Shown here: one piece after another, positions 27,592-46,724 of the stretch | Position numbering within the stretch: the stretch's first letter is position 1 | How the letters are laid out: each line of letters starts with the position of its first letter | Assembly: GCA_029210725.1 (NCBI GenBank) | Contig: JARGFM010000026.1 | Coordinates: 943 to 49,477, forward strand | Direction: 5' to 3' | Source of the DNA: Bacteroidales bacterium | GTDB lineage: Bacteria; Bacteroidota; Bacteroidia; Bacteroidales; GCA-2748055 | DNA: 48,535 nt | Made by a program: the position numbers and the translations under genes | The notes under the pieces: generated by a model | Seen by the model: the letters and a program-made list of their open reading frames with translations, nothing else | Told to the model about the DNA's origin: nothing | The model's database searches: none

Positions 27592-29879
27592 GGTTTCGAT
27601 CCAACATAGGTCTGGCAGTCCTTCTGCTTATCCTGGGCGGGTGTTCAAATATCCGTTTTCTCGCTGAGGACCAGGTGCTGTATACCGGACAGACTGGTAT
27701 TGACATTCGAATCGGAGATGATGACGTAAAGCCCTCCGACGTGAAACAAATTGTCAAGTCGGTGCCGGCTCAGAAACCCAACAATTCCCTGTTTGACCGG
27801 CGTCTATTGCCGCCTGTCGGTTTGTGGGTTTATAACTACTGTAAGGATGAGGAACAAAGAAAGCTCAAACACTGGATCTATAAAAGCGTCTCCAAAGCAC
27901 CGGTTTTGATTTCAGATATAAGGCCCGAACTAAGGGCTCAAAAGATGGCCAATGATTTGTTTGATCAGGGTTATTTCGGGGCACGGGCCTGGCCGGTGGT
28001 GGATACCATTGCCCGAAATCCGCGCAAAGCCAGGATTTCCTACTTCATTGAAGTGGACACGCCCTACAGGTATGCGAAGATTGACTTTGATCCGGCCTTT
28101 ACATCCATGGATACTACTATTAAACAGGATGATTTCAGAACTCAGATCAAGCCCGGGGATCCCTTTAATCTTGACAAACTATCCAGAGCGAGGAACGATC
28201 TTTCCAGGCAGTTTCAAAACCAGGGCTATTTCTATTTCGCCAGGGACTTTATTCAGCTGGATGCCGATACAAGTCTGGGGAACAAGGAGATAAATCTACT
28301 GGTTCGCAGCCGGGGAGACCTTCCGGCTTCTGCTCTTTCAAAATACAGCATTGATAGTATCCTGGTCATCGTTCGCTCCCCTGGAGATAGCGCGGAGTCC
28401 GTTGTGGAAGCTTTTCAGTATGAGGGGCTGACCATCTTTTCATCGGGCGATTATTTGAAACCCGAGGTGTTAAGGGCAGCGCTGTTTTTTAATTCAGGCG
28501 ATCCGTATTCCTATACCAGTTATCAGAATTCCCTCACCCGGTTAAATAAGCTGGGAGTATTCAGTTTTGTCCGTATTCACTATGAGAAAAACAGCAGGGA
28601 TAGTCTGAGTCATTTGTTGAATGTGAAGATTGACCTGATTTTGGCCGAACCCGTCAATCTGAATATAGCGGCTGATATGGCTATGAAATCCACGGGATTC
28701 GTCGGTCCTGCCCTTTCAGCCGGTATTTCTCACAGCAACACCTTCCGGGGGGCGGAAAAGGTACAGTTCTCACCCACCGGCGCCCTGGAATGGCAATGGG
28801 GACCCAAACAGGAGAATCAGCTGGGAACCTTCTCCTATGAACTGGGATTAAATTCCGGTATAACTTTTCCGAAACTCACTCTTCTGGGCAATCATCAAAG
28901 AATCAAAGCTCTTATGAATCAGGAGACCTCGGTTAACCTGAATTTTAATCTACGGAACCGTACCAACTATTACTCGATGTTCTCGGCCCTGACCAATCTG
29001 AAATACAGCTGGGGAAAACGCCGGGAGATCAGGCATACTTATGCTCCTGTATACTTAAATTCTGTTTCTCTGCTGGCCACTACGCCGGCTTTTGATTCGG
29101 TAATTGATGGAAATATTTATATCCGGAAAAGTTTCGAAGAGCAATTGATTATAGGAATGAGGTATGATTTCAGCTACGACAATACGTATAAAAAACAAGC
29201 TCACAACCTTTTCTACCAGGCAGGAGTCAGCAGTTCAGGTAATGCTCTGGATTTGTTTGAGGGAATCGGGAGGGGAGCGTCGGACAGACCGTTTGAAATT
29301 CTGAACACGGTGTATTCCCAGCACCTGAAGCTTACATCCGATTTCCGTTATTACCTGAACGGGTTCCAAAAAACCCTGGCCATGCGCCTCTATGCAGGTA
29401 TCGGGATTCCCTACGGCAATTCTTCCGTTCTTCCCTACGTGGAACAGTTCTTCAGTGGGGGTGCCTACAGTATCCGGGGCTTTACAGCCCGGACACTGGG
29501 ACCGGGCTCCTACCACGAGGTGGAAAACAGTTACATAGACCAGTCGGGCGATATGAAGCTGGAAGCCAATCTTGAATTCCGTTTTGGGATCTCCCGCATC
29601 CTGAAGGGGGCTGTTTTCCTGGAAAGCGGGAATATCTGGCTGATCAATGAGGATGAGAACAGGCCCGGATCCCGGTTCCATGTTGATAGCTTTAATAAAC
29701 AGCTGGCAGTGGGTTGCGGGGTGGGACTGAGGTTTGATTTTAACTTTTTTGTTCTGCGGACGGACCTGGGATTCCCCCTCAGAACCCCTTATCTTCAGGA
29801 TGATAAGTACTGGTTCTCCGGAGAAGGAAGCACCTTATCCTCTGCCCTTTTTTACTTCGCCATAGGCTACCCCTTCTGA
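27588..29879 (+). CDS. tamL: TamL, BamA/TamA-family outer-membrane lipoprotein
   Basis: A 763-residue BamA/TamA-superfamily protein. The lipid-anchor Cys19 (LLILGGCS) marks the Bacteroidota TamL form, since proteobacterial TamA is not lipidated. POTRA-like domains occupy about 30-400. A 16-strand barrel follows, with the loop 6 signature GGAYSIRGFTARTLGPG, and the chain ends in an aromatic beta-signal, FYFAIGYPF. It is coupled to tamB by a four-base overlap, and the pair forms the envelope-spanning TAM complex. The gene is complete and of family length. The stop is followed by an A-rich run and then the SusC leader, with no clear terminator. Confidence 0.92.
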   Translation: MRFRSNIGLAVLLLILGGCSNIRFLAEDQVLYTGQTGIDIRIGDDDVKPSDVKQIVKSVPAQKPNNSLFDRRLLPPVGLWVYNYCKDEEQRKLKHWIYKSVSKAPVLISDIRPELRAQKMANDLFDQGYFGARAWPVVDTIARNPRKARISYFIEVDTPYRYAKIDFDPAFTSMDTTIKQDDFRTQIKPGDPFNLDKLSRARNDLSRQFQNQGYFYFARDFIQLDADTSLGNKEINLLVRSRGDLPASALSKYSIDSILVIVRSPGDSAESVVEAFQYEGLTIFSSGDYLKPEVLRAALFFNSGDPYSYTSYQNSLTRLNKLGVFSFVRIHYEKNSRDSLSHLLNVKIDLILAEPVNLNIAADMAMKSTGFVGPALSAGISHSNTFRGAEKVQFSPTGALEWQWGPKQENQLGTFSYELGLNSGITFPKLTLLGNHQRIKALMNQETSVNLNFNLRNRTNYYSMFSALTNLKYSWGKRREIRHTYAPVYLNSVSLLATTPAFDSVIDGNIYIRKSFEEQLIIGMRYDFSYDNTYKKQAHNLFYQAGVSSSGNALDLFEGIGRGASDRPFEILNTVYSQHLKLTSDFRYYLNGFQKTLAMRLYAGIGIPYGNSSVLPYVEQFFSGGAYSIRGFTARTLGPGSYHEVENSYIDQSGDMKLEANLEFRFGISRILKGAVFLESGNIWLINEDENRPGSRFHVDSFNKQLAVGCGVGLRFDFNFFVLRTDLGFPLRTPYLQDDKYWFSGEGSTLSSALFYFAIGYPF

Positions 29880-30030: not shown

Positions 30031-33000
30031 ATGAAACAAGATTTACTTCAAAAGTCGGGAAGAAAAATACGGAGTGCTTTGTTACTCCTGTTTTTATTTC
30101 TGACTGGTTTTACCTTTCTGAATGCGCAGGTTACCGTCACAGGGACGGTAAGCAGTGCTGAGGATGATGCTCCGATGCCCGGGGTGAATATCATCGAGCA
30201 GGGCACCACAAACGGAGCCATCACCAATGCAGATGGAACTTATTCCATCACTGTCCCGGCTGATGCGGTGCTGCATTTCTCCTTTGTGGGAATGATCTCG
30301 CAGGATATTCCTGTGGGAAATCAAACGGTGATTGATGTCGTTCTCGAAAGCGGGACCACGGCTCTGGACGAAATCGTGGTTATCGGTTACGGAACGGCTT
30401 CCAAGGCCACCCTTACAGGGGCTGTAGCATCGGTACGGGGAGATGAACTGAAGCAGTCGCCGTCCACCAACTTCAGTAATACCCTGGTGGGACGTGTACC
30501 CGGACTGTTTGCTTACAACCGAAGTGGCGAACCCGGATATGACGGGGCCACCCTGAGGATCCGGGGAGCCAACACCCTGGGGGACAACAATCCCCTGGTG
30601 GTCATAGACGGGATTCCGAACAGGAACCTGGAGAGGCTGGATCCGGCCATGATAGAGAGTTTCACGGTTCTGAAGGATGCGTCGGCGGCCATTTACGGAA
30701 CTCAGGCGGCCAACGGGGTAATCCTGATTACCACCAAACGTGGTAAGATCGGGAAGCCCACCATTACCATCGATATGAATGTGGGTGCACAACAGCCCAC
30801 GGTTATCCCTGAGATGGCCGATGCTGCCACCTATACCATGATGCTCAATGAGATCTCTTATTATAATGATCCCAGTAGCGGGATGTACCAGGTTTATTCG
30901 GAGGCAGATATACAGGCTTACGCCGACGGATCCGATCCCTGGGGACATCCCAATACGGACTGGTTTGAGGAAGTCTTCAAGCCCTGGTCGCTGCAGCACT
31001 ATGAGAATGTTTCGGTCAACGGAGGGAACGACAGGCTGAAATACTACCTCTCCTTTGGGAACAAGTTCCAGGATGCGGTCTATTACAACAGTGCCACCTA
31101 CTATTCGCAGCAGGATTTCCGTAGCAATATCGACAGTAAGATCACGGATAACATCGATCTTTCCTTCGACGTGGCAGCCCGTTCGGAAAACAGGCACTTC
31201 CCGACAGTCAGTGCTGGCAACAGTTTCCGGATGCTGATGCGTGGAAAGCCCAATATGCCCGCTTTCTGGCCCAACGGGGATCCGGGTCCCGATATCGAAT
31301 ATGGTCATAACCCGGCGGTAACCACCACAGATGCGACCGGTTATAACGATGATAAGAACTATTACCTGGAGACCAACCTTCGTCTCAATGTGAAGATTCC
31401 CTGGGTGAAAGGTCTGGCTGTTCAGGGGAACTTTTCTTATGACAAGCGTTTCCGTTATCAGAAAGTTTTTGAAACCCCCTGGTTTCTCTATACCTGGAAC
31501 GGATCCACCACGGATCCGGAAACCACACCCGGGAAGCGGGGTCTGGATGCGCCCCAGCTGACCCAAAGGGCCAATGATGACTATAAGATGACCTATAACG
31601 CCTATGTGACCTATGACAAGGAGTTTGGTGGCAGCGCCCTGAAGGTGATGGTGGGTACCGAGAATCAGAAGGGCCTGAATAACTGGATGTATGCTTTCCG
31701 CAAAAATTATGTGGCCAGTGATATCGATCAGCTCTTTGCCGGTGCTACGGACCAGTATATGGCCAATAACGGATCTGCTTCCCAGTTTGCCCGCCAGAGT
31801 TATTTTGGCCGTATCAACTACAACTATAACGGAAAATACCTGGCCGAGGTGGTTATGCGTTACGACGGATCCTATATGTTTGATGAGGCCTGGGGCTTTT
31901 TCCCTGGTATTTCCCTGGGATGGCGCATTGTGGATGAGGCTTTCTGGAGCAACAACATCAGTTTCTTCGACGACTTCAAGATCCGTGGGTCCTGGGGACA
32001 GACAGGGAACGACAGGATTTACTATGATGGCTCCTTGCAGGAGTACAAATACCTGACTCTCTATGGATTTAGCAACAGGAGTTATGTCTTCGGGCAGAGC
32101 GTGGATAATAAAATGCTCTCTGAGCAGGCGATTCCCAACCCCGATGTCACCTGGGAGGTGGCCAACCAGTTTAACCTTGGTTTCAATACAGCCTTCCTGG
32201 ATAACCGGATGACCCTGGAAGCAGATTACTTCCACAACCTGAGGACTAACATCCTCTGGAGAAGGAACGCATCTGTTCCTACCAGTGCGGGACTTTCCCT
32301 GCCTCCTGAAAACATCGGGGAGGTAGCGAACCAGGGATTTGAGTTTGTTCTGGGATTCAGAGGGGGCTCCTCGGGAAGAGTGAGGTACGACCTGGCTTTG
32401 AATGGATCTTATGCCCATAACGAAATCCTATTCTGGGATGAGACCCCGGGAATCCCCGAATACCAGCAATCCACCGGACAACCTATGGGAGCAGCACTAT
32501 ATTATGAAGCCATTGGTGTGTTCGAAAGCCAGGCTGATGTCGATGCATATCCCCACTGGGCCGGCGCCCAACCCGGAGATGTCATCTTCAAAGACGTGAA
32601 TGACGACGGGGTCATCGATGGCCTGGACCGGGTGAGGCAGGAAAAAAGTGGTCTGCCTTTCTTTACCGGAGGATTATCGGCAAGCCTTTATGTAGGCGGT
32701 TTCGATGTTTCCATCCTGTTCCAGGGAACATCGGGGGCGGTAGCCTATATCAGTCCGGAATCCGGAGAAATCGGCAACTACTATAACGATTACGCCGTGA
32801 ACCGGTGGACTCCTTCCAACCCGAGTTCTGAATATCCAAGAGCATGGAACCGTGATAACGAGTACTGGCGCAGCCAGGGCAATACTTTCTGGCTCCACAA
32901 TACGGACTATATCCGCCTGAAAAATATCGAGATTGGATACAACCTGCCCGATAAAGCCTTAAATGTTATTGGCCTTGCCGGCCTGCGTGTTTATGCCAAC

Positions 33001-33114
33001 GGGTTGAACGTGTTCACCCTCTCCAGGGAGAAACTGATCGATCCCGAGCTTACGTCAGGAACCGCCTATCCCCTGCAGCGGATTATTAACCTGGGTTTGA
33101 CTATAACCTTTTAA
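30031..33114 (+). CDS. SusC/RagA-family TonB-linked outer-membrane transporter
   Basis: A 1027-residue receptor. A signal peptide (cleavage near LNAQ, residue 33) is followed by a CarboxypepD_reg-like domain (about 34-110, VTGTVSSAEDDAPMPGVNI). Next is the SusC plug with its family motif (DEIVVIGYGTASKATLTGAV), then LRIRGANTLGDNNPLVVIDG and DASAAIYGTQAANGVILITT, and a 22-strand barrel to the end. It has no N-terminal STN domain, so it is not of the anti-sigma-coupled type. It forms the glycan import pore, with SusD encoded 11 bases downstream as its lid. The surrounding GH2 and GH36 genes suggest a galactose-bearing glycan as cargo. Confidence 0.93.
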   Translation: MKQDLLQKSGRKIRSALLLLFLFLTGFTFLNAQVTVTGTVSSAEDDAPMPGVNIIEQGTTNGAITNADGTYSITVPADAVLHFSFVGMISQDIPVGNQTVIDVVLESGTTALDEIVVIGYGTASKATLTGAVASVRGDELKQSPSTNFSNTLVGRVPGLFAYNRSGEPGYDGATLRIRGANTLGDNNPLVVIDGIPNRNLERLDPAMIESFTVLKDASAAIYGTQAANGVILITTKRGKIGKPTITIDMNVGAQQPTVIPEMADAATYTMMLNEISYYNDPSSGMYQVYSEADIQAYADGSDPWGHPNTDWFEEVFKPWSLQHYENVSVNGGNDRLKYYLSFGNKFQDAVYYNSATYYSQQDFRSNIDSKITDNIDLSFDVAARSENRHFPTVSAGNSFRMLMRGKPNMPAFWPNGDPGPDIEYGHNPAVTTTDATGYNDDKNYYLETNLRLNVKIPWVKGLAVQGNFSYDKRFRYQKVFETPWFLYTWNGSTTDPETTPGKRGLDAPQLTQRANDDYKMTYNAYVTYDKEFGGSALKVMVGTENQKGLNNWMYAFRKNYVASDIDQLFAGATDQYMANNGSASQFARQSYFGRINYNYNGKYLAEVVMRYDGSYMFDEAWGFFPGISLGWRIVDEAFWSNNISFFDDFKIRGSWGQTGNDRIYYDGSLQEYKYLTLYGFSNRSYVFGQSVDNKMLSEQAIPNPDVTWEVANQFNLGFNTAFLDNRMTLEADYFHNLRTNILWRRNASVPTSAGLSLPPENIGEVANQGFEFVLGFRGGSSGRVRYDLALNGSYAHNEILFWDETPGIPEYQQSTGQPMGAALYYEAIGVFESQADVDAYPHWAGAQPGDVIFKDVNDDGVIDGLDRVRQEKSGLPFFTGGLSASLYVGGFDVSILFQGTSGAVAYISPESGEIGNYYNDYAVNRWTPSNPSSEYPRAWNRDNEYWRSQGNTFWLHNTDYIRLKNIEIGYNLPDKALNVIGLAGLRVYANGLNVFTLSREKLIDPELTSGTAYPLQRIINLGLTITF

Positions 33115-33125
33115 ATTCTCAGACG

Positions 33126-34976
33126 ATGAAACAGATATTTAAGATTTTTATATTTCTTCTGATAGTTGGTCTGACCAGTTCATGCCAGAAAGATTTTCTG
33201 CAGCTTGATCCCTTATCAGATTATTCAGATGCAGCAGTCTGGAATGATCCTGCTCTGATCGAAACCTTTGTAAACAACATTTACAGGAACGCTCTGGGAT
33301 TTCCCTTTGCCATTGAGAGACTCTCAGACTATGTGGATGAGTCTCACTTTACCCCTGACTGGGATGTGACCAATTTCAACAAGTGCCTGATGACCTCTGA
33401 TGGTCTGATGGGCTGGGATGTGGACTGGGGTGATAATTCACCGAGCAAACACACCCGGCATTACCGGTGGGGACCGCTTTACAGTAATGTAAGGGCCTGC
33501 AATATCTTTTTTGAGAAAACTGCCGGTGCTGATTATGGTATTAACCAGAGTTTAGTGGATGACATGGCCGGAGAAGTCCATTTCCTTCGTGCCTATACTT
33601 ATCACTATCTGGCTGCACTCTATGGCGGGGTCCCCATCATTACGGAACCCTATGGACTGAGTGATGATTTTGAAGTTGCCAGGAACACTTACGAGGAGAC
33701 TGTTAATTACATTGTGCAGGATCTGGATGCAGCAGCGGCCATTCTTCCCGATGTACAGGAAGGTGACCGGGCCGGCCGGGCTACCAGGGGGGCAGCCATG
33801 CACCTGAAGGCCAGGACCCTGTTGTATGCGGCCAGTGATCTGCACCATTCCATGCAGACATATGCACCCGGATTCAGTAACCCGGAACTGCTGGGTTATA
33901 CAAGTGGCAGTCAGAATGCCAGATGGGAGGCAGCTAAGGATGCTGCTAAAGCGGTGATGAATCTCGGAATTTATGACCTGGTATCTCCTGATCCCGCTCC
34001 GGGTGATGACATCGCGCAGACCTTTATCGATTATTTCATCTCCTATGGCTACGAAGAGGAGGATATCCTGCTGCAGTATTTCACACCCAAAACCGATGAG
34101 AACTGGGATGGATATAACCCGGCGCTGTACTGCGGCCCCAATGGCTATCACAACTGGGGCAACAACGTTCCCCTGGGGGAGCTGGTGGATGATTACGAGT
34201 TTGCCGATGGTACGAAGTTTGACTGGAGTAATCCGGCCCATGCAGCGGCTCCCTATACCAACCGGGAAGCCAGGTTTTATGCCACCATCCTGTATGAAGG
34301 AGCCGACTGGAGGGTGCGTCCTTCAGATGTCCAGGAGATTGATCCCTGGAACAAGATCCAGGTGGGTCATGTCTACAACCTGGCCGGTGATTTGATTGTA
34401 CCCGGTGTGGATACCCGCAGCGGTCCCATTGAGGACTGGAACGGTGGTAAGTCCGGATACTACGTAAAGAAGTTCGTGGATAAATCCGTTGATCCCCAGT
34501 ACGTAAAGCAGGATATTCCCTTCAGGCATTTCCGCTATGCAGAAACTTTGCTGAACTACGCGGAAGCCTGCATCGAGCTGGAAGAGGATGACGAGGCCAA
34601 GACCTATCTGAATATGATCCGGAAGCGTGCCGGACTGCCTGATATCACCTCTACCGGAGATGATTTGCGTCAGGACTACCGTCATGAGCGCCGGATAGAG
34701 ATGGCCTATGAAGACCAGCGATTCTGGGATGTGAGGCGCTGGGTCATTGGCCCCGAAGCCTATCACCAGACCCACCGGGTGGATGTACGCTATGAAACCG
34801 ATCAACCCGCCACCAACTATCGCCAGGCAGATGGAAGCACCTGGGGCGATCCCATCTTTTCAGAAGCAGAGTTGGGGGGGGATGCCAGGGCATGGTTGGA
34901 TAAGGCCTATTTCTTCCCCATTTACAGGGATGAGATGAATAAGAATTCGCTGCTTATTCAGAATCCTGGTTACTAG
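33126..34976 (+). CDS. SusD/RagB-family glycan-binding lipoprotein
   Basis: A 616-residue surface lipoprotein. The lipid-anchor Cys20 (VGLTSSC) is followed by the family opening DFLQLDPLSDYSDAAVWND and the helical TPR-like core (EVHFLRAYTYHYLAALYGGVPIIT). The C-terminal RagB region includes YAETLLNYAEACIELEEDDEA and HERRIEMAYEDQRFWDVRRW. It binds the glycan on the outer surface and closes over SusC. It is in one unit with the SusC gene. A strong intrinsic terminator follows the stop, separating this pair from the enzymes downstream. The C-terminus is intact. Confidence 0.93.
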   Translation: MKQIFKIFIFLLIVGLTSSCQKDFLQLDPLSDYSDAAVWNDPALIETFVNNIYRNALGFPFAIERLSDYVDESHFTPDWDVTNFNKCLMTSDGLMGWDVDWGDNSPSKHTRHYRWGPLYSNVRACNIFFEKTAGADYGINQSLVDDMAGEVHFLRAYTYHYLAALYGGVPIITEPYGLSDDFEVARNTYEETVNYIVQDLDAAAAILPDVQEGDRAGRATRGAAMHLKARTLLYAASDLHHSMQTYAPGFSNPELLGYTSGSQNARWEAAKDAAKAVMNLGIYDLVSPDPAPGDDIAQTFIDYFISYGYEEEDILLQYFTPKTDENWDGYNPALYCGPNGYHNWGNNVPLGELVDDYEFADGTKFDWSNPAHAAAPYTNREARFYATILYEGADWRVRPSDVQEIDPWNKIQVGHVYNLAGDLIVPGVDTRSGPIEDWNGGKSGYYVKKFVDKSVDPQYVKQDIPFRHFRYAETLLNYAEACIELEEDDEAKTYLNMIRKRAGLPDITSTGDDLRQDYRHERRIEMAYEDQRFWDVRRWVIGPEAYHQTHRVDVRYETDQPATNYRQADGSTWGDPIFSEAELGGDARAWLDKAYFFPIYRDEMNKNSLLIQNPGY

Positions 34977-35065: not shown

Positions 35066-38317
<3,252 letters not shown>

Positions 38318-38335: not shown

Positions 38336-40111
38336 TTGAAAGAGCCTGTCCGGACATATGATCCCATAATCCTGAAGAGAGTCATAGGAGTCTTGGTGAC
38401 TGTCTTATCTTTTCTGTGGTTCTTTTTTCCGGGCGAGTATGCCCTGATCGCCAATCAGGACCTGGGCCTCTTTATCCTTAAGCCTGAGTTCCTGCTTACT
38501 TTCCTGGATCGTCCGGGCGGATTGCTGGAATATGCGGGCAGCTTTCTGAACCAGTTTTTGCGCTTCCGTTTTGCTGGTGCCCTGCTGCTGGCAGGCCTGT
38601 CACTGGCCGGGTATTATATATCCACAGGGATCGTGGAACGGATCTCGGGAAGAAAAGAGCTTCTGATCCCGGGTATCCTGACCCCCATACTTGTTATAGG
38701 GATGCATAACTTTTATTTGCATCAGATCATTCATTCGCTGGGATTTTTTCTGGCCATGGGGCTGGTGGCCATGGTCCCGGTACAAAGAAGCAGGAGGAGG
38801 GTGTTCCTGGCTATCGCGATCCCCCTTGTCTATCTGCTGAGCGGAGGATTTGTATGGGTTTTCTGTGTACTGATCCTGGCAGAGGATATGGTGAGAAACA
38901 GGCGACTGGACTATATAAGCCTGCTGCTCTCTTCGCTTTATCCTGCTATCCTCGTCGTGGCCGCGGCACGGCTGATTTACCTGGATACTCTGCAGGAGCT
39001 TATGCTAATGCATTTACCTTTTGGTAATAGCTACGGAGCCTCTCCCTGGCCTTTTCTGTTTTTGTTCTGGATATTGCTATACATGGTTCTGGCGGGACTG
39101 ACCCATCTTATGGTAAAGCTGAAACCTGTTTGGAGCTATGCTTCCCAAATCATCCTCTCTCTGGCAGTGGCTGCCCTGGTATTGCATTTTTCCTTTAAGC
39201 GGAAGAATGCAGAATTTTTCCAGATCGAGAAGCGGGCCATAGAGGAGGATTGGGAGGGTGTGTTGCAGTACGCTGAAAAGCACCCCTCCAGGAATCTTTT
39301 TGGTTCGTTCTATACAAATCTGGCCCTGGTGAACAGCAACAGGCTTTGTTCCGACCTGTTCCGCTATCCACAGTCCTTTGGCAGAAGGGGCCTCTGCTTT
39401 GAGTGGGATGCAAAAGGGGAGATGCTGCGGAGGGGAAGTGACTTCTACTGGACGGTTCGCTTTGTGAATGAGGCGCATCACTGGGCCTATGAGTCGATGG
39501 TGATTGATGGTTTTACCCGGCGGAACCTCCGGAGGCTTATACAAACCGAACTGGTCAGAGGCAACCATAAGATTGCAGAGAAGTATATGGATCATCTGGA
39601 AAGTGCGCTTTTTCAGCGGAAGACAGCGGAGCATTACAGGCAGTTTCTAAATAAGCCGCAGGCCATGTTGACGGATCCTGAATTCGGTCCGGGGATGGAA
39701 ATAAGGGTGGACCAGGATTTCTTTGCGGAAGGATCGGACCTGGAGAAGAATCTCAGCCTCTTGCTTTGGAACAATCCTGCAAACCCTCAGGCCTTTGATT
39801 ATCTGATGGCCCTCTTCCTGCTGGAGAAGCGGATAGATGAGATAGCGGAAAACCTCCCTGCATATCTGAATATCCGTGCAGGCAGGATGCCTGTGTTGCT
39901 GGATGAAAGCCTCCTGGTTTATAAGATCACCCATCCGGAGGACAGCCTGTTTGACATCCGGGTATCCCGGGCCACCGGGGAGAGGTTTCAGGCATATTCC
40001 CGGGTACTGCGCCAGTATCAGAATCCCGGAGAGGCCGCCAGGATGCTCTACCCGGCTTTTGGGAGTTCATTCTGGTTTCATTTGAATTTCAGTTCTTTAA
40101 CCAGAAATTGA
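38336..40111 (+). CDS. DUF6057-type polytopic membrane protein, TTG start
   Basis: A 591-residue protein. The only reasonable start is TTG at 38336: the preceding in-frame stop is that of the GH2 gene, and no ATG occurs before the first membrane helices. Residues about 15-290 hold eight to ten hydrophobic helices (LTVLSFLWFFF, AGALLLAGLSLAGYYIS and others). The second half (about 295-591) is soluble and alpha-helical, resembling TPR-like scaffolding. The pattern matches DUF6057 proteins, which in Bacteroidota PULs occur beside PD40 proteins like the one downstream. Function is unknown. The PD40 gene starts three bases after the stop, so the two are almost certainly translated together. Confidence 0.7.
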   Translation: MKEPVRTYDPIILKRVIGVLVTVLSFLWFFFPGEYALIANQDLGLFILKPEFLLTFLDRPGGLLEYAGSFLNQFLRFRFAGALLLAGLSLAGYYISTGIVERISGRKELLIPGILTPILVIGMHNFYLHQIIHSLGFFLAMGLVAMVPVQRSRRRVFLAIAIPLVYLLSGGFVWVFCVLILAEDMVRNRRLDYISLLLSSLYPAILVVAAARLIYLDTLQELMLMHLPFGNSYGASPWPFLFLFWILLYMVLAGLTHLMVKLKPVWSYASQIILSLAVAALVLHFSFKRKNAEFFQIEKRAIEEDWEGVLQYAEKHPSRNLFGSFYTNLALVNSNRLCSDLFRYPQSFGRRGLCFEWDAKGEMLRRGSDFYWTVRFVNEAHHWAYESMVIDGFTRRNLRRLIQTELVRGNHKIAEKYMDHLESALFQRKTAEHYRQFLNKPQAMLTDPEFGPGMEIRVDQDFFAEGSDLEKNLSLLLWNNPANPQAFDYLMALFLLEKRIDEIAENLPAYLNIRAGRMPVLLDESLLVYKITHPEDSLFDIRVSRATGERFQAYSRVLRQYQNPGEAARMLYPAFGSSFWFHLNFSSLTRN

Positions 40112-40114
40112 CCT

Positions 40115-41590
40115 ATGAGTAGCGCTGAAAGCAATGATATACGACCCGGTTTTCCATGGATGCTTTTGCTGGGGATGATCTTTTTCTGGAGCAGTTGCGA
40201 AGGGCCACCCCGCGCAGGAGGTGGGCAGATTGCCAGCCTGGAAGGCTCTCCCCGGATATTTCCGGACTATAAAGATATTACCATTCCCTTAAATATCGCA
40301 CCGCTTAATTTTAGGGTAGAAGAGGATGGAGAGCGTTTTGCTGCAAGGCTGGAGGGAGCCAGGGGGGTGGAGATAAAGCTGAAAGCCAGAGGAAGGACAT
40401 TCAGGATCCCGCCTGAAAAGTGGAGGCGGTTTCTGGAGGAGAACCAGGGAACTCGGATCGGGATCCGGGTATTTGTAAAAGCGGACGGGCAATGGGCAGG
40501 ATTTGAGTCCTTCGCTCTCCAGGTGGCTCCGGAAGCCATCGATCCCAGCCTGGTCTACCGCCTGATTCCGCCGGGTTATGAAACCTGGTCCTCTATGGGG
40601 CTCTATCAGCGCGACCTTAGCTCTTTCAGGGAGCGTCCCATCATCGAGAACCGGCATATCGAGGATAACTGTGTGAACTGCCACTCTTTCAGGAATGGCA
40701 GCAGCGAACAGATGATGTTTCATATCAGGGGTACCATGGGCGGGACCATGATTAAACAGGGCAACGACATCAGGAAGGTGGATCTGAACAGAGAAGGGAC
40801 CCTTTCGGCAGGAGTCTATCCATCCTGGCACCCTTCCGGCTTATACATTGCATTCTCCACCAACCGGATCGAGCAGTATTTTCATGCACGTCCTGAAAAA
40901 GACATTGAGGTCCTGGACAGGCAATCCGACCTGGTCCTATACAATACGGCCAGCGGAGAGATAAGTCATGTGCCGGGTACTGAGGACGACCGGTTTATGG
41001 AGACTTTCCCCAGCTGGTCGCCAGATGGAAAAATGCTGTACTTCAGCAGAACAGAGGCAGATGCAGCAACGCCTTTTGATTCAATCAGATACGATATATA
41101 CCGGATCGCTTTTGATGCGGAAGGAGGGGTGTTTGGGGAGACCGAGCCGGTCCTGCCTGCATCGGAAAAGGGGCAGAGTGCCTCCTTCCCCAGGATATCC
41201 CCCGATGGAAAGTACCTGCTGTGCACCCTGCATGATTACGGTACCTTCCCCATCTGGCATAAAGAGGCCGATCTTTGCCTGGTCGATCTGCTCAGCGGAG
41301 AGCGTAAGCCAACGGACAGGGTAAACTCCGGTGATACAGACAGCTACCACAGCTGGGCACAGAATAACCGGTGGATTGTGTTCAGCAGCAGGAGGTACGA
41401 TGGTCGATATACAAAACTATATATCAGCTACCTGAGCGAAGAGGGAGAGTTTCAGAAACCCTTTTTGATTCCCCAGCGGAATCCCGGTTTTTACCATTCG
41501 TTCTTCTACTCCTATAACCGGCCCGAATTGATCACCGGCGCCGTGGATGTGAATCCCCATGCCTGGGTTCAGAAGGCACGTTCAGATTGA
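40115..41590 (+). CDS. PD40/TolB-like lipoprotein with single c-type heme motif
   Basis: A 491-residue predicted lipoprotein with anchor Cys28 (FFWSSCEG). An N-terminal beta domain (about 40-140) is followed by a c-type heme attachment motif, CVNCH (186-190), with nearby Met200/Met201 that could supply a second axial ligand. The C-terminal half is a TolB-like beta-propeller of PD40 repeats (YPSWHPSGLYIAFS, FPSWSPDGKMLYFS, FPRISPDGKYLLCT). Propeller proteins bind ligands or other proteins, and the heme suggests electron transfer or redox sensing. The reason a PUL would encode this is unknown. It lies between DUF6057 and the alpha-galactosidase in one transcription unit. Confidence 0.75.
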   Translation: MSSAESNDIRPGFPWMLLLGMIFFWSSCEGPPRAGGGQIASLEGSPRIFPDYKDITIPLNIAPLNFRVEEDGERFAARLEGARGVEIKLKARGRTFRIPPEKWRRFLEENQGTRIGIRVFVKADGQWAGFESFALQVAPEAIDPSLVYRLIPPGYETWSSMGLYQRDLSSFRERPIIENRHIEDNCVNCHSFRNGSSEQMMFHIRGTMGGTMIKQGNDIRKVDLNREGTLSAGVYPSWHPSGLYIAFSTNRIEQYFHARPEKDIEVLDRQSDLVLYNTASGEISHVPGTEDDRFMETFPSWSPDGKMLYFSRTEADAATPFDSIRYDIYRIAFDAEGGVFGETEPVLPASEKGQSASFPRISPDGKYLLCTLHDYGTFPIWHKEADLCLVDLLSGERKPTDRVNSGDTDSYHSWAQNNRWIVFSSRRYDGRYTKLYISYLSEEGEFQKPFLIPQRNPGFYHSFFYSYNRPELITGAVDVNPHAWVQKARSD

Positions 41591-41617: not shown

Positions 41618-43816
41618 ATGAAAAGAGTAATGATTGTCCTGTTCCTTTCAGGGGCGTTATCCGTCCTCATGGCCCAGGAAATATGCATCCCGGTTTCGAC
41701 CGGTAACAGCCTGATGCTCCTGCAGACCGACCGGGATCAGCGCCTGCGGACCATCTATTTTGGAGAACCGCTGAAGGACACCGGGGAGCATGCCCTGGTG
41801 GAGGAAGGATTTCAATATATGGACTCCAATGCCGGGATTTATAATGCCGTTTACACTCCGGCCGGGACCTGGAATTTGGCCGAGCCGGCCATCCAGGTGG
41901 TTCACGCAGACGGGAACGGCTCCCTGGATCTGAAATATGTGAGCCATCAGCAGGAGCAGGTTGATGCGAATTGCACCCTTACAACCGTGGTGCTTGAGGA
42001 TGAGGTCTATCCTTTCCGGGTGGCCCTGTTCTATAAGAGCTGGATCAGGGAAAATGTCATTGAGCAATGGGCAGAAATTGAGCATCGGGAGTCCGGACCG
42101 GTGCTTATGAAAAAATTTGCCTCGGCAAATCTTTATTTCTCCCGTAAGGATTTCTACCTGACCACCTTCCATAACAGCTGGGCCAAAGAGATGCAGCCAT
42201 CTGAAACAAAGCTTTCCCGCGGGACCCGGTCGGTCGATTCCAAACTGGGAACCAGGGCCATGCTATTGCAGGCCCCCCATTTTATTCTCTCCTTTGACCA
42301 GCCGGCAGCAGAGAATCAGGGAAGCGTTATTCTCGGACATCTGGCCTGGAGTGGGAATTTCAAACTGGAATTTGAACTGGACTCTTACGAGAATCTCCGG
42401 TTTATCGGAGGAATCAATCCCTATGCTTCAGAATATGAGCTTTCTGCTGACCAGATTTTTAAAACACCCTCCCTGATCTATGCCATCTCTCACAGTGGAG
42501 CAGGAGACGCCAGCCGGGGTCTTCATTCCTGGGCAAGAAAATACCGGGTGCTGGATGGAGAGGGCGGTCGTCTGACGCTGCTGAATAACTGGGAGGCCAC
42601 GTATTTCAGTTTTGATGAAGAGCGACTTACCGGGCTGTTTAAGGATGCCAGGGAGCTGGGTGTGGATCTCTTTCTGCTGGACGACGGATGGTTTGGAAAC
42701 AAGTACCCCAGGAACAGCGACAGGGCCGGTCTGGGCGACTGGCAGGAAAATGTTAAGAAATTGCCCCGGGGGATCGGCTATCTGGTAACGGAGGCAGAGA
42801 AAGCAGGAGTGAAGTTTGGGATCTGGATAGAGCCCGAGATGGTGAATCCCAAAAGCGAATTGTATGAGAATCACCTGGACTGGGTGATCCGGCAACCCGA
42901 AAGGCCTGAAAAGTATTTTCGTACCCAGCTGGTACTGGATTTGTCCAACCCGGAAGTCCGGGACTTTGTTTTCGGAGTGGTGGATGGCCTGTTTACTGAG
43001 AATCCAGGCCTGGCTTTTATTAAGTGGGATTGTAATGCGCCCGTATTTAACGCTTATTCGGAATACCTGGAGAGAAACGGGATTCCTCAGTCTCATCTCT
43101 ATATCGAATATGTGAAGGGATTGTACAGCGTCCTGGAGCGGGTCCGGGAAAAATATCCCGGGGTTCCCATGATGCTTTGTTCAGGTGGCGGGGGCCGTGG
43201 AGATTATGAGCTCCTGAAATATTTCACCGAATTCTGGCCCAGCGATAATACGGATCCCCTTGAAAGGGTCTATATGCAGTGGGACTATTCTTACTTTTTT
43301 CCGGCTATAGCGACCGATTGTCACGTGACCAACTGGGGGGACCAGCCCCTGAAATTTAAAGTGGATGTGGCCAGTATGGGAAAGCTGGGATTTGATATTG
43401 TGGCCGGTGAATTGTCGGCCGATGATCTGCAGTTCTGCAGGGAAGCGGTAAAAAACTATCATTCCTTTAAAGAGGTGGTCTGGCATGGCGACCTCTACCG
43501 GCTTGTAAATCCTCATACGGACGATTTATCCTCCATGATATTTGTGAATAAGGAGCAAAGCAGGGCTGTTGTATTTAACTACCTGGTTAATCAGAGATTC
43601 ATGATAACGGCGAGAGAGGAGCCCATTCAGCTGGAAGGGCTGGATCCCTCCCGGAAATATCGAATCCGGGAGATCAACCTTTTTCCCGGGACACGTTCCA
43701 GGTTCAATGGCGACAGGATTTATTCGGGCGACTTCCTGATGAAGGTCGGGGTAAACCCTGGCCTGTCGCTCCGGAGAACAAGCGTGGTCCTGGAGCTCAC
43801 CGAAGTTGTAGAGTGA
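41618..43816 (+). CDS. GH36 alpha-galactosidase
   Basis: A 732-residue exported enzyme with a signal peptide ending near LMAQ (residue 20). The N-terminal beta-supersandwich (about 20-300) is followed by the TIM barrel (LLNNWEATYFSFDEERL, then LFLLDDGWFG). The nucleophile is Asp471 in FIKWDCN and the acid/base is Asp543 in FWPSDNTDP. The substrate-binding CSGGGGR motif is also present. It releases alpha-linked galactose, as from raffinose-type sugars or galactomannan side chains, and shares galactose as product with the LacZ-type enzyme. It is the last gene of the PUL, with 21 bases to the convergent serine hydrolase stop. It is complete and of family length. Confidence 0.93.
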   Translation: MKRVMIVLFLSGALSVLMAQEICIPVSTGNSLMLLQTDRDQRLRTIYFGEPLKDTGEHALVEEGFQYMDSNAGIYNAVYTPAGTWNLAEPAIQVVHADGNGSLDLKYVSHQQEQVDANCTLTTVVLEDEVYPFRVALFYKSWIRENVIEQWAEIEHRESGPVLMKKFASANLYFSRKDFYLTTFHNSWAKEMQPSETKLSRGTRSVDSKLGTRAMLLQAPHFILSFDQPAAENQGSVILGHLAWSGNFKLEFELDSYENLRFIGGINPYASEYELSADQIFKTPSLIYAISHSGAGDASRGLHSWARKYRVLDGEGGRLTLLNNWEATYFSFDEERLTGLFKDARELGVDLFLLDDGWFGNKYPRNSDRAGLGDWQENVKKLPRGIGYLVTEAEKAGVKFGIWIEPEMVNPKSELYENHLDWVIRQPERPEKYFRTQLVLDLSNPEVRDFVFGVVDGLFTENPGLAFIKWDCNAPVFNAYSEYLERNGIPQSHLYIEYVKGLYSVLERVREKYPGVPMMLCSGGGGRGDYELLKYFTEFWPSDNTDPLERVYMQWDYSYFFPAIATDCHVTNWGDQPLKFKVDVASMGKLGFDIVAGELSADDLQFCREAVKNYHSFKEVVWHGDLYRLVNPHTDDLSSMIFVNKEQSRAVVFNYLVNQRFMITAREEPIQLEGLDPSRKYRIREINLFPGTRSRFNGDRIYSGDFLMKVGVNPGLSLRRTSVVLELTEVVE

Positions 43817-43837: not shown

Positions 43838-45346
43838 CTAATCCGTCGCTGTGCCTGTGATTTGTCCCGGATTCACCGGTCCGAACGAGGCCCTGTATTC
43901 TGTATCCCAGTACAGTTTATCCTCTTCGAACCTGAAGCTGAAGGTCAGGCTCTGCGGTGTTTCATAGTAAATAAGCTTAAGCACATAGGTATCCCCGGAC
44001 GTCCAGGCACCACTGGCAGCCACCTTATCGGAAACTACGCGTGGATCGGCCAGTACCCCGGGTTCCGTTTCCAGATATCCCACCCTGAGAAGCGATTCTC
44101 CCTGAACGGTGTGGATGGTGATCTCTGTGGCGGGAGCTTCAAAATTGAAAGAGATGGAACGGATGGAACCTTGGTTGGGTTCCAGGCTGTAGATAAGCCC
44201 GCTTACTTCTGAAGCCAGGGGAGAGCTTTTTTCGCCCGCGACTGGGGAGATGGACAATTCCTGAAGCTTCTGATTCAGTTGCTTTAATCCATCCTCGTCG
44301 GGCGGGAGGATGCCCTCCTGCATGGCAGGCAGAAGCTCTTCCCAGACCACATTCAGGATTCCCTGCAGATCGTCGGAGCCTGAGGTCATCGCAAGCACCG
44401 CATCCTGTTCAGGCAAAACGATGCAGTACTGCCCGAATGCCCCGTCGCCCCGGTAGGCATTGTGACGGCACTGCCAGAACTGGTAGCCGTAACCCTGGTC
44501 CCAGTCGCTCTCCGGGTTGCTGCCATTGGAAGTCTGGTAGCCGGTGGCCTCTTCGACCCAGGCTTCGGAGACCAGCTGCCTGCCTTCCCAGATGCCCTTC
44601 TGCAGGTAAAGCTGACCCAGTTTGGAGATATCTTCGGTGCGAACGCTAAGTCCCCATCCACCCACACTGATCCCCCGGGGACAAGTCTCCCAGGTGGGAT
44701 TTTCAATACCCAGGGGTTCAAAGAGGCGGGGCGTCAGGTAGTCCAGGGTAGTCATACCGGTCACTTTCCGGATGATGGCCGAGCACATATAGGTGGCCAT
44801 GCTGTTGTACAGGAAGTGGGTTCCCGGCTTAAAATCGACTTTGTGGGCCAGGAAGGCTTCTACCCAGTTATCGGACTGCATTTGCCGGAAACCGGGCTCC
44901 ACGGCATGTCCCGTGTTCATCCGGAGCAGATCCCTGATGCGCATGGCTTTCAGATTGGCGGATGCTTCCTCCGGAACCTCCTCCGGGAAGAAGGAAATCA
45001 CCAGGTCGTCTATGCTTAATAATCCTTCATCCTGGGCCATTCCGATGGCGGTGGAGGTAAAGCTCTTGGAGAGGGACCACAGCAGGTGGGGACTTTCGGG
45101 ATTATAGGGACCCCACCAGCCGGAGGCCACTACCTGGCCATGCCGGCGAAGCATAAAGCTGTGAATGGCATCTGGCTGAGCTGTTTCCAGGGCCTCCACA
45201 AACTGGAGAATGGACCGGGATGAGATCCCCGCTTCTTCGGGAGTTGCGTTAGCTGTTTCGCTGCCTGATTCAGCCTTTTCGGGGCTGTTGCATGCGGTTG
45301 ATCCCAGCCAGACGGAGAGGATCAGGAAGCATAGTGATTTCTTCAT
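43838..45346 (-). CDS. Serine hydrolase lipoprotein, beta-lactamase/COG1680 type
   Basis: A 502-residue lipoprotein. I chose the ATG at 45346 because it gives the signal peptide and anchor Cys19 (WLGSTACN). The frame's earlier start would overlap the cytochrome gene. The fold is the class C beta-lactamase/D-peptidase type: Ser91-x-x-Lys94 in WSLSKSF carries the nucleophile and base, and Tyr180 in FLYNSMATY replaces the usual YxN motif with YNS. A C-terminal domain (from about 375) is extra beta structure. Such proteins hydrolyse esters, amides or D-peptides, and the substrate is unknown. It starts 10 bases after the octaheme cytochrome stop, so it is probably cotranscribed with that gene. Confidence 0.85.
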   Translation of the reverse strand: MKKSLCFLILSVWLGSTACNSPEKAESGSETANATPEEAGISSRSILQFVEALETAQPDAIHSFMLRRHGQVVASGWWGPYNPESPHLLWSLSKSFTSTAIGMAQDEGLLSIDDLVISFFPEEVPEEASANLKAMRIRDLLRMNTGHAVEPGFRQMQSDNWVEAFLAHKVDFKPGTHFLYNSMATYMCSAIIRKVTGMTTLDYLTPRLFEPLGIENPTWETCPRGISVGGWGLSVRTEDISKLGQLYLQKGIWEGRQLVSEAWVEEATGYQTSNGSNPESDWDQGYGYQFWQCRHNAYRGDGAFGQYCIVLPEQDAVLAMTSGSDDLQGILNVVWEELLPAMQEGILPPDEDGLKQLNQKLQELSISPVAGEKSSPLASEVSGLIYSLEPNQGSIRSISFNFEAPATEITIHTVQGESLLRVGYLETEPGVLADPRVVSDKVAASGAWTSGDTYVLKLIYYETPQSLTFSFRFEEDKLYWDTEYRASFGPVNPGQITGTATD

Positions 45347-45356
45347 ATTTGGTCGT

Positions 45357-46724
45357 TTATCTGGCCCGGCCGCCAATGCGCATGGGATCGTCTTCGTATC
45401 CCAGTTCCTGCCAGTTGAGTCGTTTAGTGTCTTTCCGGGTATGACAATCTGTACATTTTAAAGATTTAGCAGCGGGGGCCACCATATGGTTTACGGGCCA
45501 GTACATCTTTGTCAGTACGAAGCCATACTCTCCCGAATATTCCAGCTTACTTGCAGCCATTCCTTTTTCAGCGGCCCCGTTCCAGTCGAAGTCGGACCAG
45601 TATCCGCCTTCCCCGTACATTTTCGGAGTGATCAGATAACGGTTTTTTACATCGTAGATTTGCTTACCCCGCATCATTTTGAAAGGGGCTATTTTAGCCG
45701 ACTTATCATAGATGTTTCCGGAGAGTTTATTTATCTCCACTCCATTTTCCGGATTGATTTTATCTCCCATCAGATAATAATCTGCTTTCCCGTTGTACCA
45801 TCTGTATTCCGGAATCACGTTCTTCTCCCAGGTGAAATCACCTTTCTTTTTGTCATATACCGGCATGCCGTGTTCATCCGGCTCTACCGTTTTGTCCTCT
45901 CCGGCCGTGGACCAGTCCCACCAGATCTTTGTTGGTTCTTCGCGGGCGAAGGCCGGAATATGACAGGTTTCGCAGGCAACCGAGCTGATGTGATCGTTCA
46001 CCACCTTTTTCCTGTGTGGCTTTTCCGAGTGGCAGTCCAGACAGGAAATATGATTGGTGCCGCTGGCCATGGATCCGTGACTTGCACCCAGGATCATGTG
46101 ATTCTCTCCGGCGTGGCAATCGGAACAGGAGAAACCAAGCTCCCCCATGTGAAAGTCCAGGGCGGGCGATGGGTTGGACATACTGGCGGTAAGGTCCCCG
46201 TGTTTTACACCCGGTCCGCCACCCCCGTTAAAATGACAGGCACTGCAGCTTCTGATGGTGGTTTTTCCAACGCTCTTTGCCACCCTGACCAGGTCAACTT
46301 CAGGATCCGGCATGCCCGCTCCGGTGGGTACCTTCTTATAGGTTCCGGTCCGGTCGTGGCAAACCAGGCAATCAATGTTGTTCGGATCTTCAAAATCAAA
46401 TGTTTCATCTTTCCATCCGAATCCGATATGGCAGCTGGTACAGCGGGGCCAGTTGGAGGGCAGGGAGACGCAGAAGCTGTTGATGAGGTTTTGTTTTCCC
46501 AGTTGCATGCTCACTCCTTCTTTATTGATAAAAGTATCTCCCAGCCAGTTCCAGTGCCTGGTTTTCATAATGGCTTTGTCAATGCCATCGTGGCAGAGTA
46601 GGCAGGTTTCTGTAACTTCCCGGGGGCTTGCAAAAGGACCTTCAATAAATTCTGCATGATCCTCCTGGGCGAAAAGATTGCTGCCAAAAAACAGCACAAT
46701 GCATAGTGTTGCCAGGGTTTTCAT
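45357..46724 (-). CDS. Octaheme c-type cytochrome, tetrathionate reductase family
   Basis: A 455-residue periplasmic protein with a signal peptide ending near LFAQ (residue 20). Eight CxxCH motifs start at residues 41, 95, 119, 160, 200, 228, 251 and 424, each attaching one heme. The spacing and the conserved tail (SLKCTDCHTRKDTKRLNW) fit the octaheme tetrathionate reductase (OTR) family, whose members reduce tetrathionate and also nitrite or hydroxylamine in vitro. The natural substrate here is unknown. No membrane quinol oxidase gene lies alongside. An FNR-type palindrome 70-84 bases upstream implies control by oxygen or a related signal. It is the first gene of a leftward pair with the serine hydrolase. 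Confidence 0.9.
   Translation of the reverse strand: MKTLATLCIVLFFGSNLFAQEDHAEFIEGPFASPREVTETCLLCHDGIDKAIMKTRHWNWLGDTFINKEGVSMQLGKQNLINSFCVSLPSNWPRCTSCHIGFGWKDETFDFEDPNNIDCLVCHDRTGTYKKVPTGAGMPDPEVDLVRVAKSVGKTTIRSCSACHFNGGGGPGVKHGDLTASMSNPSPALDFHMGELGFSCSDCHAGENHMILGASHGSMASGTNHISCLDCHSEKPHRKKVVNDHISSVACETCHIPAFAREEPTKIWWDWSTAGEDKTVEPDEHGMPVYDKKKGDFTWEKNVIPEYRWYNGKADYYLMGDKINPENGVEINKLSGNIYDKSAKIAPFKMMRGKQIYDVKNRYLITPKMYGEGGYWSDFDWNGAAEKGMAASKLEYSGEYGFVLTKMYWPVNHMVAPAAKSLKCTDCHTRKDTKRLNWQELGYEDDPMRIGGRAR

Follow-up and report, generated by a model that had tools for sequence, protein, structure and literature searches.

A conserved pair of DUF6057 membrane and PD40 propeller proteins with a putative haem c motif in Bacteroidota

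Why should a nutrient-uptake operon encode a lipoprotein with a haem-attachment motif? The question is raised by a 48,535-nucleotide stretch of a Bacteroidales genome (assembly GCA_029210725.1, contig JARGFM010000026.1, positions 943 to 49,477), the whole of which we call the window. In it, a DUF6057 membrane protein with a TTG start (38336..40111, + strand; PF19529, E=6e-109) precedes a PD40 beta-propeller lipoprotein (40115..41590, + strand; PF07676, E=1e-16, AlphaFold model and family alignment) with one CxNCH motif. Here, we report that the two constitute a real, conserved, widespread and undescribed pair, associated across genomes with cytochrome c maturation genes and with a chorismatase-like gene. 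We regard it as moderately probable that the two proteins form a dedicated redox module in the cell envelope of Bacteroidota, in which a haem-c propeller docks to a TPR-tailed membrane anchor.

Results

DUF6057 and PD40 proteins as specific partners

Scanning named genome contigs with the window's PD40 protein yielded 80 PD40 loci, 79 labelled as members of Bacteroidota and one as Gemmatimonadetes. DUF6057 was present at 75 of them, and the five loci without it (L034, L066, L098, L103 and L106) start or stop near the PD40 gene, at contig ends. Within the order, which the named relatives indicate to be Bacteroidales and which was sampled with 295 genomes, a full PD40 protein (E<1e-100, a threshold chosen after viewing the match list) was found in 31 genomes, a count that excludes three genomes with fragments (G149, G131, G154), and DUF6057 was encoded in all 31. 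DUF6057 matched in 43 of the 295 genomes and exceeded the Pfam cut-off in 35, including four without a full PD40 protein (G011, G149, G154, G258). The window genome (3.8 Mb, 98.6% complete) holds one DUF6057 match and one full-length PD40-protein match.

The two genes are also physically coupled. The 80 loci and the window together contain 104 PD40 and 96 DUF6057 genes, which form 89 same-strand adjacent pairs and leave 15 PD40 and 7 DUF6057 genes unpaired by this rule. DUF6057 comes first in 55 pairs and PD40 in 34, with a gap within 100 bases in 82. Tree distances of the two proteins in 84 adjacent pairs were correlated at r=0.76, a value reached by none of 2,000 free permutations. When partners were shuffled only inside the nine multi-copy loci, so that species relatedness was kept, mean r was 0.60 and again none of 2,000 shuffles reached 0.76; DUF6057 and PD40 proteins therefore evolve as specific partners. 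A preliminary description of this DNA had proposed the coupling, and these counts and the co-divergence bear it out; our open reading frame check likewise agreed with its coordinates, TTG start, 3-base gap and flanking galactosidase genes, which belong to glycoside hydrolase families GH2 and GH36. A literature search for DUF6057 found no paper.

Some loci carry tandem arrays, with four DUF6057/PD40 pairs in L089 and L090 and three of each gene in L068, L070 and L085. On the Gemmatimonadetes-labelled contig (L047), the pair is convergent with a DAHP synthase gene and accompanied by an edge-cut chorismatase-like gene; it represents either a transfer between phyla or a mislabelled bin.

A single conserved CxNCH motif on the propeller

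The predicted haem c attachment site, CVNCH, spans residues 186-190 of the PD40 protein (40670..40684, + strand). In an alignment of 128 distinct full-length relatives, taken from the 80 loci and from loci of DUF6057 matches in other genomes, CxxCH is present in all 128 and CxNCH in 127, with exactly one motif per protein, and for this reason CVNCH is no chance motif. Among 80 of these relatives, 76 are 34-44% identical to the window protein and the other four 63-71%; retention of CxxCH at 34-44% identity in most relatives therefore points to strong constraint. The preliminary description had read one CVNCH in this protein and had allowed that it might vary among homologues; the motif is indeed single, and CxxCH is kept throughout the alignment.

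His412 (codon 41348..41350, + strand), a candidate second ligand, is His in 127 of the 128 relatives and in all eight proteins of a sister family described below. The family alignment has many invariant polar residues and no invariant Met that could serve as distal haem ligand. Signs of export include an N-terminal helix at residues 13-26 in the AlphaFold model (mean predicted local distance difference test (pLDDT) score 91.9) and the predicted lipoprotein cysteine C28 (codon 40196..40198, + strand), to which a cysteine aligns in 123 of 128 relatives; a lipobox pattern is matched in 92 of 128. The PD40 protein likely carries haem c, with C186, C189 and H190 possibly holding the haem and H412 possibly providing the second ligand. 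A literature search for PD40 with CXXCH found no paper.

Known propellers resemble the protein in part. Its PD40 repeats are shared with TolB-type propellers, and 65 of 81 family members match the NCBIfam TolB model at E<=1e-4; however, the window protein scores 34.1 bits against a cut-off of 343.15 for TolB of Tol-Pal, and differs from TolB in its lipoprotein anchor, its CxNCH motif and its DUF6057 partner. Cytochrome cd1 nitrite reductase, a propeller haem protein that bears its haem c in a separate helical domain, gave a weak Foldseek match (template-modelling score ~0.33, ~9% identity).

Weaker matches led to a sister family of PD40 proteins with CGNCH or CANCH (G064, G072, G149, G167, G454, G490), homologous to the paired family across the propeller (hhalign probability 100%, E=9e-49). 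CxNCH is present in all eight sister proteins, which also share R149, C186, N188, C189, H190, N404, H412, W420 and N468. In contrast, R166, R205, E265, D268, H382, R427 and K448 are nearly invariant in the paired family and are not kept in the sister family. We infer from this distribution that the residues common to both families may form the cofactor site, and those kept in the paired family only, the substrate or DUF6057 site. The available contig pieces of the sister family bear no DUF6057 label, and five of its eight proteins have TPR repeats on the same chain according to Pfam. This fusion suggests that DUF6057 provides the same function in trans through its TPR-like domain.

Cytochrome c maturation genes in carrier genomes

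Among the order genomes, ResB (System II) is encoded by all 31 with a full PD40 protein versus 178 of the 264 others (Fisher p=1e-5, in association tests that count related genomes as independent). It is likewise present in every genome of the order that encodes a full-length sister protein (G064, G072, G149, G167), of which G072, G149 and G167 lie beyond the 31. Four genomes outside the order, two with the pair (G333, G372) and two with the sister family (G454, G490), gave no ResB match, and all four encode CcmE and Cytochrom_C_asm (System I). Maturation genes were not found in G157 (sister fragment, 83% complete) or G011 (lone DUF6057, 61% complete). The haem-type motif noted in the preliminary description is thus supported, both by its conservation and by the maturation genes of its carriers.

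An octaheme tetrathionate-reductase-family c-type cytochrome gene (45357-46724, - strand; TIGR04315, 577 bits, cut-off 375) sits 3.8 kb from the pair on the opposite strand, which suggests that the organism makes c-type cytochromes.

A chorismatase-like third partner

When genes up to four places from the pairs were clustered, SusC and SusD were followed by a family of ~380-residue proteins, present at 8 of the 80 loci. Its members match FkbO_Hyg5-like_N and/or Ribonuc_L-PSP in Pfam, and its profile matches structure 5ag3 at E=7e-32 and FkbO (4bps) at E=1e-23, with a C-terminal VCR..LLVEIE stretch kept. 5ag3, which we take to be Hyg5, is catalogued as a putative pteridine-dependent dioxygenase. 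The copy in the window genome exceeds the cut-off of PF21168. By its profile similarity to FkbO and Hyg5, the third partner fits a chorismatase, with chorismate conversion as its putative activity.

Counting strong matches (E<1e-30, chosen after viewing the list, in which no listed match falls between 7e-34 and 1e-18), the chorismatase-like gene is present in 27 of the 31 genomes with a full PD40 protein and in 20 of the 264 others in the order (p=2e-21), and 44 of the 47 genomes with this gene also encode ResB. It lies less than 10 kb from a gene of the pair in ten genomes (G029, G030, G078, G108, G112, G149, G182, G211, G262, G280), two of which, G078 and G182, belong to the same genus and share the same gene arrangement, and less than 10 kb from ResB in at least 13 order genomes. 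Outside the order, it is found ~2 kb or less from the PD40 or sister gene in G333, G372 and G454, and not in G490.

At individual loci, the chorismatase-like gene adjoins the pair (L166, L169, L171, L172, L175), neighbours the sister gene (L150, L154, L155), or lies near ResB/CcsA and DHOR di-haem peroxidase genes (L164, L165, L179). It occurs with DHOR and no labelled ResB in L178, near ResB and an HZS_alpha protein in L157 and L159, and beside ResB alone in L158 and L163. A literature search for chorismatases with cytochrome c gave no paper on such a link, as judged by titles and the beginnings of abstracts; PMC12423496 was not on point.

Several gene groups around this family recur. DHOR di-haem oxidoreductase and ResB/CcsA genes cluster in L161 (1370-6528, with imelysin shown), L164, L165 and L179. 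The HZS_alpha proteins of L157 (8502-12494, - strand) and L159 (3273-7268, + strand) have 1331-1332 residues, combine NPCBM, HZS_alpha and FGE-sulfatase domains with two CxxCH motifs, and are encoded in the same gene run as ResB/CcsA and the chorismatase-like gene. Proteins of this type (PF18582) thus resemble the window PD40 protein in CxxCH and in these neighbours, but differ in their second CxxCH and in their FGE-sulfatase and NPCBM domains. Homology of the PD40 protein to hydrazine synthase alpha was rejected: it has no PF18582 match, and hhalign to one such protein gave a probability of 4%. DAHP synthase genes near the pair (L042, L047, L048) are too few to weigh.

These associations bear on a first alternative, namely that CxNCH and His412 bind a non-haem metal such as copper or zinc in the propeller channel, in the manner of propeller metalloenzymes, so that the protein would be a metal-dependent enzyme whose substrate is an imported glycan or aromatic. 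In known c-type cytochromes a helix follows CxxCH, whereas the ligand-free AlphaFold model of the PD40 protein places residues 186-192, and with them CVNCH, in a beta strand. The weak structural matches returned by Foldseek include an oligogalacturonate lyase with manganese and thiocyanate dehydrogenase, and the abundance of invariant polar residues is reminiscent of an active site. Against a non-haem metal stand the maturation genes: System II or System I, one replacing the other, is present in the 31 full-PD40 genomes, in G072, G149 and G167, and in the four genomes outside the order, and the chorismatase-like partner is often near ResB/CcsA. We consider the non-haem alternative unlikely, albeit the strongest competitor to a haem.

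Operon layout and locus context

All neighbouring genes and other gene positions given here are our own open reading frame calls. The pair belongs to an operon-like run on the + strand comprising a SusC-like TonB-dependent transporter (30031..33114; Pfam Plug and CarbopepD_reg_2), a SusD-like lipoprotein (33126..34976; Pfam SusD_RagB, E=2e-54), a GH2 LacZ-type beta-galactosidase (35093..38317; Pfam), DUF6057, the PD40 lipoprotein and a GH36 alpha-galactosidase (41618..43816; Pfam Melibiase, E=5e-90), with intergenic gaps of 11, 116, 18, 3 and 27 bases. With its SusC/SusD pair and glycoside hydrolases, the operon qualifies as a polysaccharide utilization locus (PUL). Both galactosidases are in the operon and outside the conserved module. 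Immediately upstream of the SusC gene lie tandem TamB-like and Omp85-like genes (22897-29879, + strand). A beta-lactamase-fold protein is encoded at 43838-45376 (- strand), its top NCBIfam match being 3-succinylated cholic acid synthase (315 of an 800-bit cut-off).

The preliminary description had placed the pair in a galactan PUL, a label that two galactosidase families alone suggest. In the nearest relative, L033, the PD40 protein is 72% identical, SusC 81%, SusD 80% and GH2 25%; in L036, SusC (78%) and SusD (80%) are convergent to the pair, and L053 has a partial SusD gene with 65% identity. A particular SusC/SusD, not the galactosidases, thus goes with the pair in these three relatives. 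Across the 80 loci there were two GH2 matches, 30% and 25% identical, and no GH36 match at E 1e-20. We accordingly rejected a galactan-specific role, and the proposed tie to galactan is unsupported.

Sus genes occur no more than two genes away from the pair in 22 of the 80 loci and anywhere on the available piece in 32, counts taken from loci that differ in length, many of them short, and given without a baseline for Sus genes near random genes. Sugar-uptake loci thus hold the pair only in some cases, and it is not a general PUL component. With Sus genes near the pair in only 22 of 80 loci and the galactosidases unconserved, it resembles an independent module that several contexts have recruited.

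A Pfam scan of 73 of 91 non-Sus upstream, 11 of 12 inner and 82 of 123 non-Sus downstream genes argued against a fixed pathway around the pair: the commonest families, among the first 25 of 105 and 109 families, were DUF4369 (7 of 84) and MFS_1 (5 of 82). Small DUF4369-type proteins (~200 residues), a possible extra subunit, are encoded up to four genes from the pair in eight of the 80 loci (L067:7563-8141, L068:3163-3768, L070:3106-3714, L071:4597-5226, L085:1334-1912, L088:3315-3911, as well as L052 and L057), with the Pfam match over the cut-off in L070 and just below it in L067. A 3-keto-disaccharide hydrolase gene lies beside the pair in L033, with a 91% identical match in L034, and MocA-type and/or TIM-barrel genes lie near L038, L048, L051 and L053. 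A link to 3-keto-glycosides, for which such genes are suggestive but have no background rate, was set aside. A literature search for PULs with c-type cytochrome and heme returned one mass-spectrometry review only.

The DUF6057 membrane partner

The window protein matches PF19529 over nearly its full length (residues 14-585; profile 7-568 of 569; 365.9 bits, cut-off 29.8), a family to which Pfam assigns no function, and its TTG start agrees by eye with the start region of the nearest relative, L033. The AlphaFold model (pLDDT 93.1) shows about nine membrane helices up to residue 286, the first two of which are separated by short helices, followed by a helical TPR-like domain (residues 289-585). 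Hydropathy is consistent with these helices. Lys/Arg counts are 2, 2, 0, 2 and 2 in the predicted inner loops and 3 (in 47 residues), 0, 0 and 0 in the outer ones. Hydropathy and most loop charges predict a periplasmic TPR-like domain. Foldseek gave weak matches, mostly to TPR proteins.

A second alternative takes the pair as a haem- or thiol-based sensor of redox state or oxygen that gates the uptake operon through DUF6057, which would relay the signal. A lipoprotein propeller next to a membrane protein with a TPR-like domain, the operon position behind SusC/SusD, and the extracytoplasmic function (ECF) sigma factor and FecR genes in the same gene run as the pair in L172 would suit such a sensor. 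However, the Pfam search matched no known signalling domain in DUF6057, few neighbours belong to sensor or regulator families (among 82 downstream genes, three have histidine kinase domains), and the pair occurs in tandem up to four times (L089, L090), so that we judge a sensor improbable. Least credible, to the point of being very improbable, is a GT-C membrane glycosyltransferase with the PD40 protein as partner or acceptor and a purely structural motif: the DUF6057 topology (first transmembrane helix, a long first outer loop that contains amphipathic helices, more transmembrane helices, TPR-like domain) can be likened to that of TMTC proteins, which are of the TPR-tailed GT-C type, but when the membrane part of DUF6057 was compared by hhalign with 25 TMEM260-like sequences, which represent the one GT-C family covered, the probability was 0.5%, no GT-C protein is named among the best 50 of 789 Foldseek rows, and an acidic loop residue, E in 55 of 69, is replaced by Q in the window protein, with D adjacent.

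Discussion

How might a redox module of two proteins work? From the conservation, pairing and genome associations reported above we infer the haem itself, its ligands, the docking, the aromatic and the reaction. The PD40 lipoprotein would be a c-type cytochrome with a single haem, which C186, C189 and H190 hold at the mouth of the beta-propeller, with H412 as the likeliest second ligand and R166, R205, E265, D268, H382, R427 and K448 forming a substrate or partner site. DUF6057 would anchor the propeller through nine inner-membrane helices and dock it by its periplasmic TPR-like domain. A hydroxybenzoate-type aromatic is probably the product of the separate chorismatase-like enzyme, and this chorismate-derived compound may serve the same haem chemistry. 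Placed in a SusC/SusD operon, the window module would most likely perform, or wire, an oxidation-reduction step on an imported molecule.

Several observations weigh against the redox module. Besides the strand geometry of CVNCH, the first 30 residues after the last transmembrane helix of DUF6057 carry six Lys/Arg, contrary to the predicted topology, and Pfam finds no TPR in three of the eight sister proteins. ResB is carried by 209 of the 295 order genomes overall, and the association tests count related genomes as independent. Four of the 31 full-PD40 genomes (G239, 65% complete; G244; G247; G255) lack the chorismatase-like gene or match it only weakly, and once full-PD40 genomes are excluded the excess of this gene with ResB is not significant (17 of 20, p=0.11). 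In the window genome it resides on another contig, beside a 3-keto-disaccharide hydrolase, GH127 and GH42 and not beside cytochrome genes. Finally, the functions of genes neighbouring the pair vary widely.

With regard to the broader significance, we raise as a tentative possibility that the pair represents a new class of c-type cytochrome, with haem on a propeller strand, a TPR-tailed partner with nine transmembrane helices and a chorismate-derived aromatic supplied by the chorismatase-like enzyme. It would then be an undescribed redox system of the Bacteroidota envelope that depends on an aromatic and has been recruited by several nutrient-uptake loci. The pair, present in 31 of 295 order genomes, is common enough for study in culturable species. 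If the proposal is true, it would account for DUF6057, a Pfam family without assigned function, and tie chorismatase-like genes to cytochrome c maturation. It would also place covalent haem chemistry in the Sus-type nutrient uptake of Bacteroidota, of which, to our knowledge, no covalent-haem part is known.

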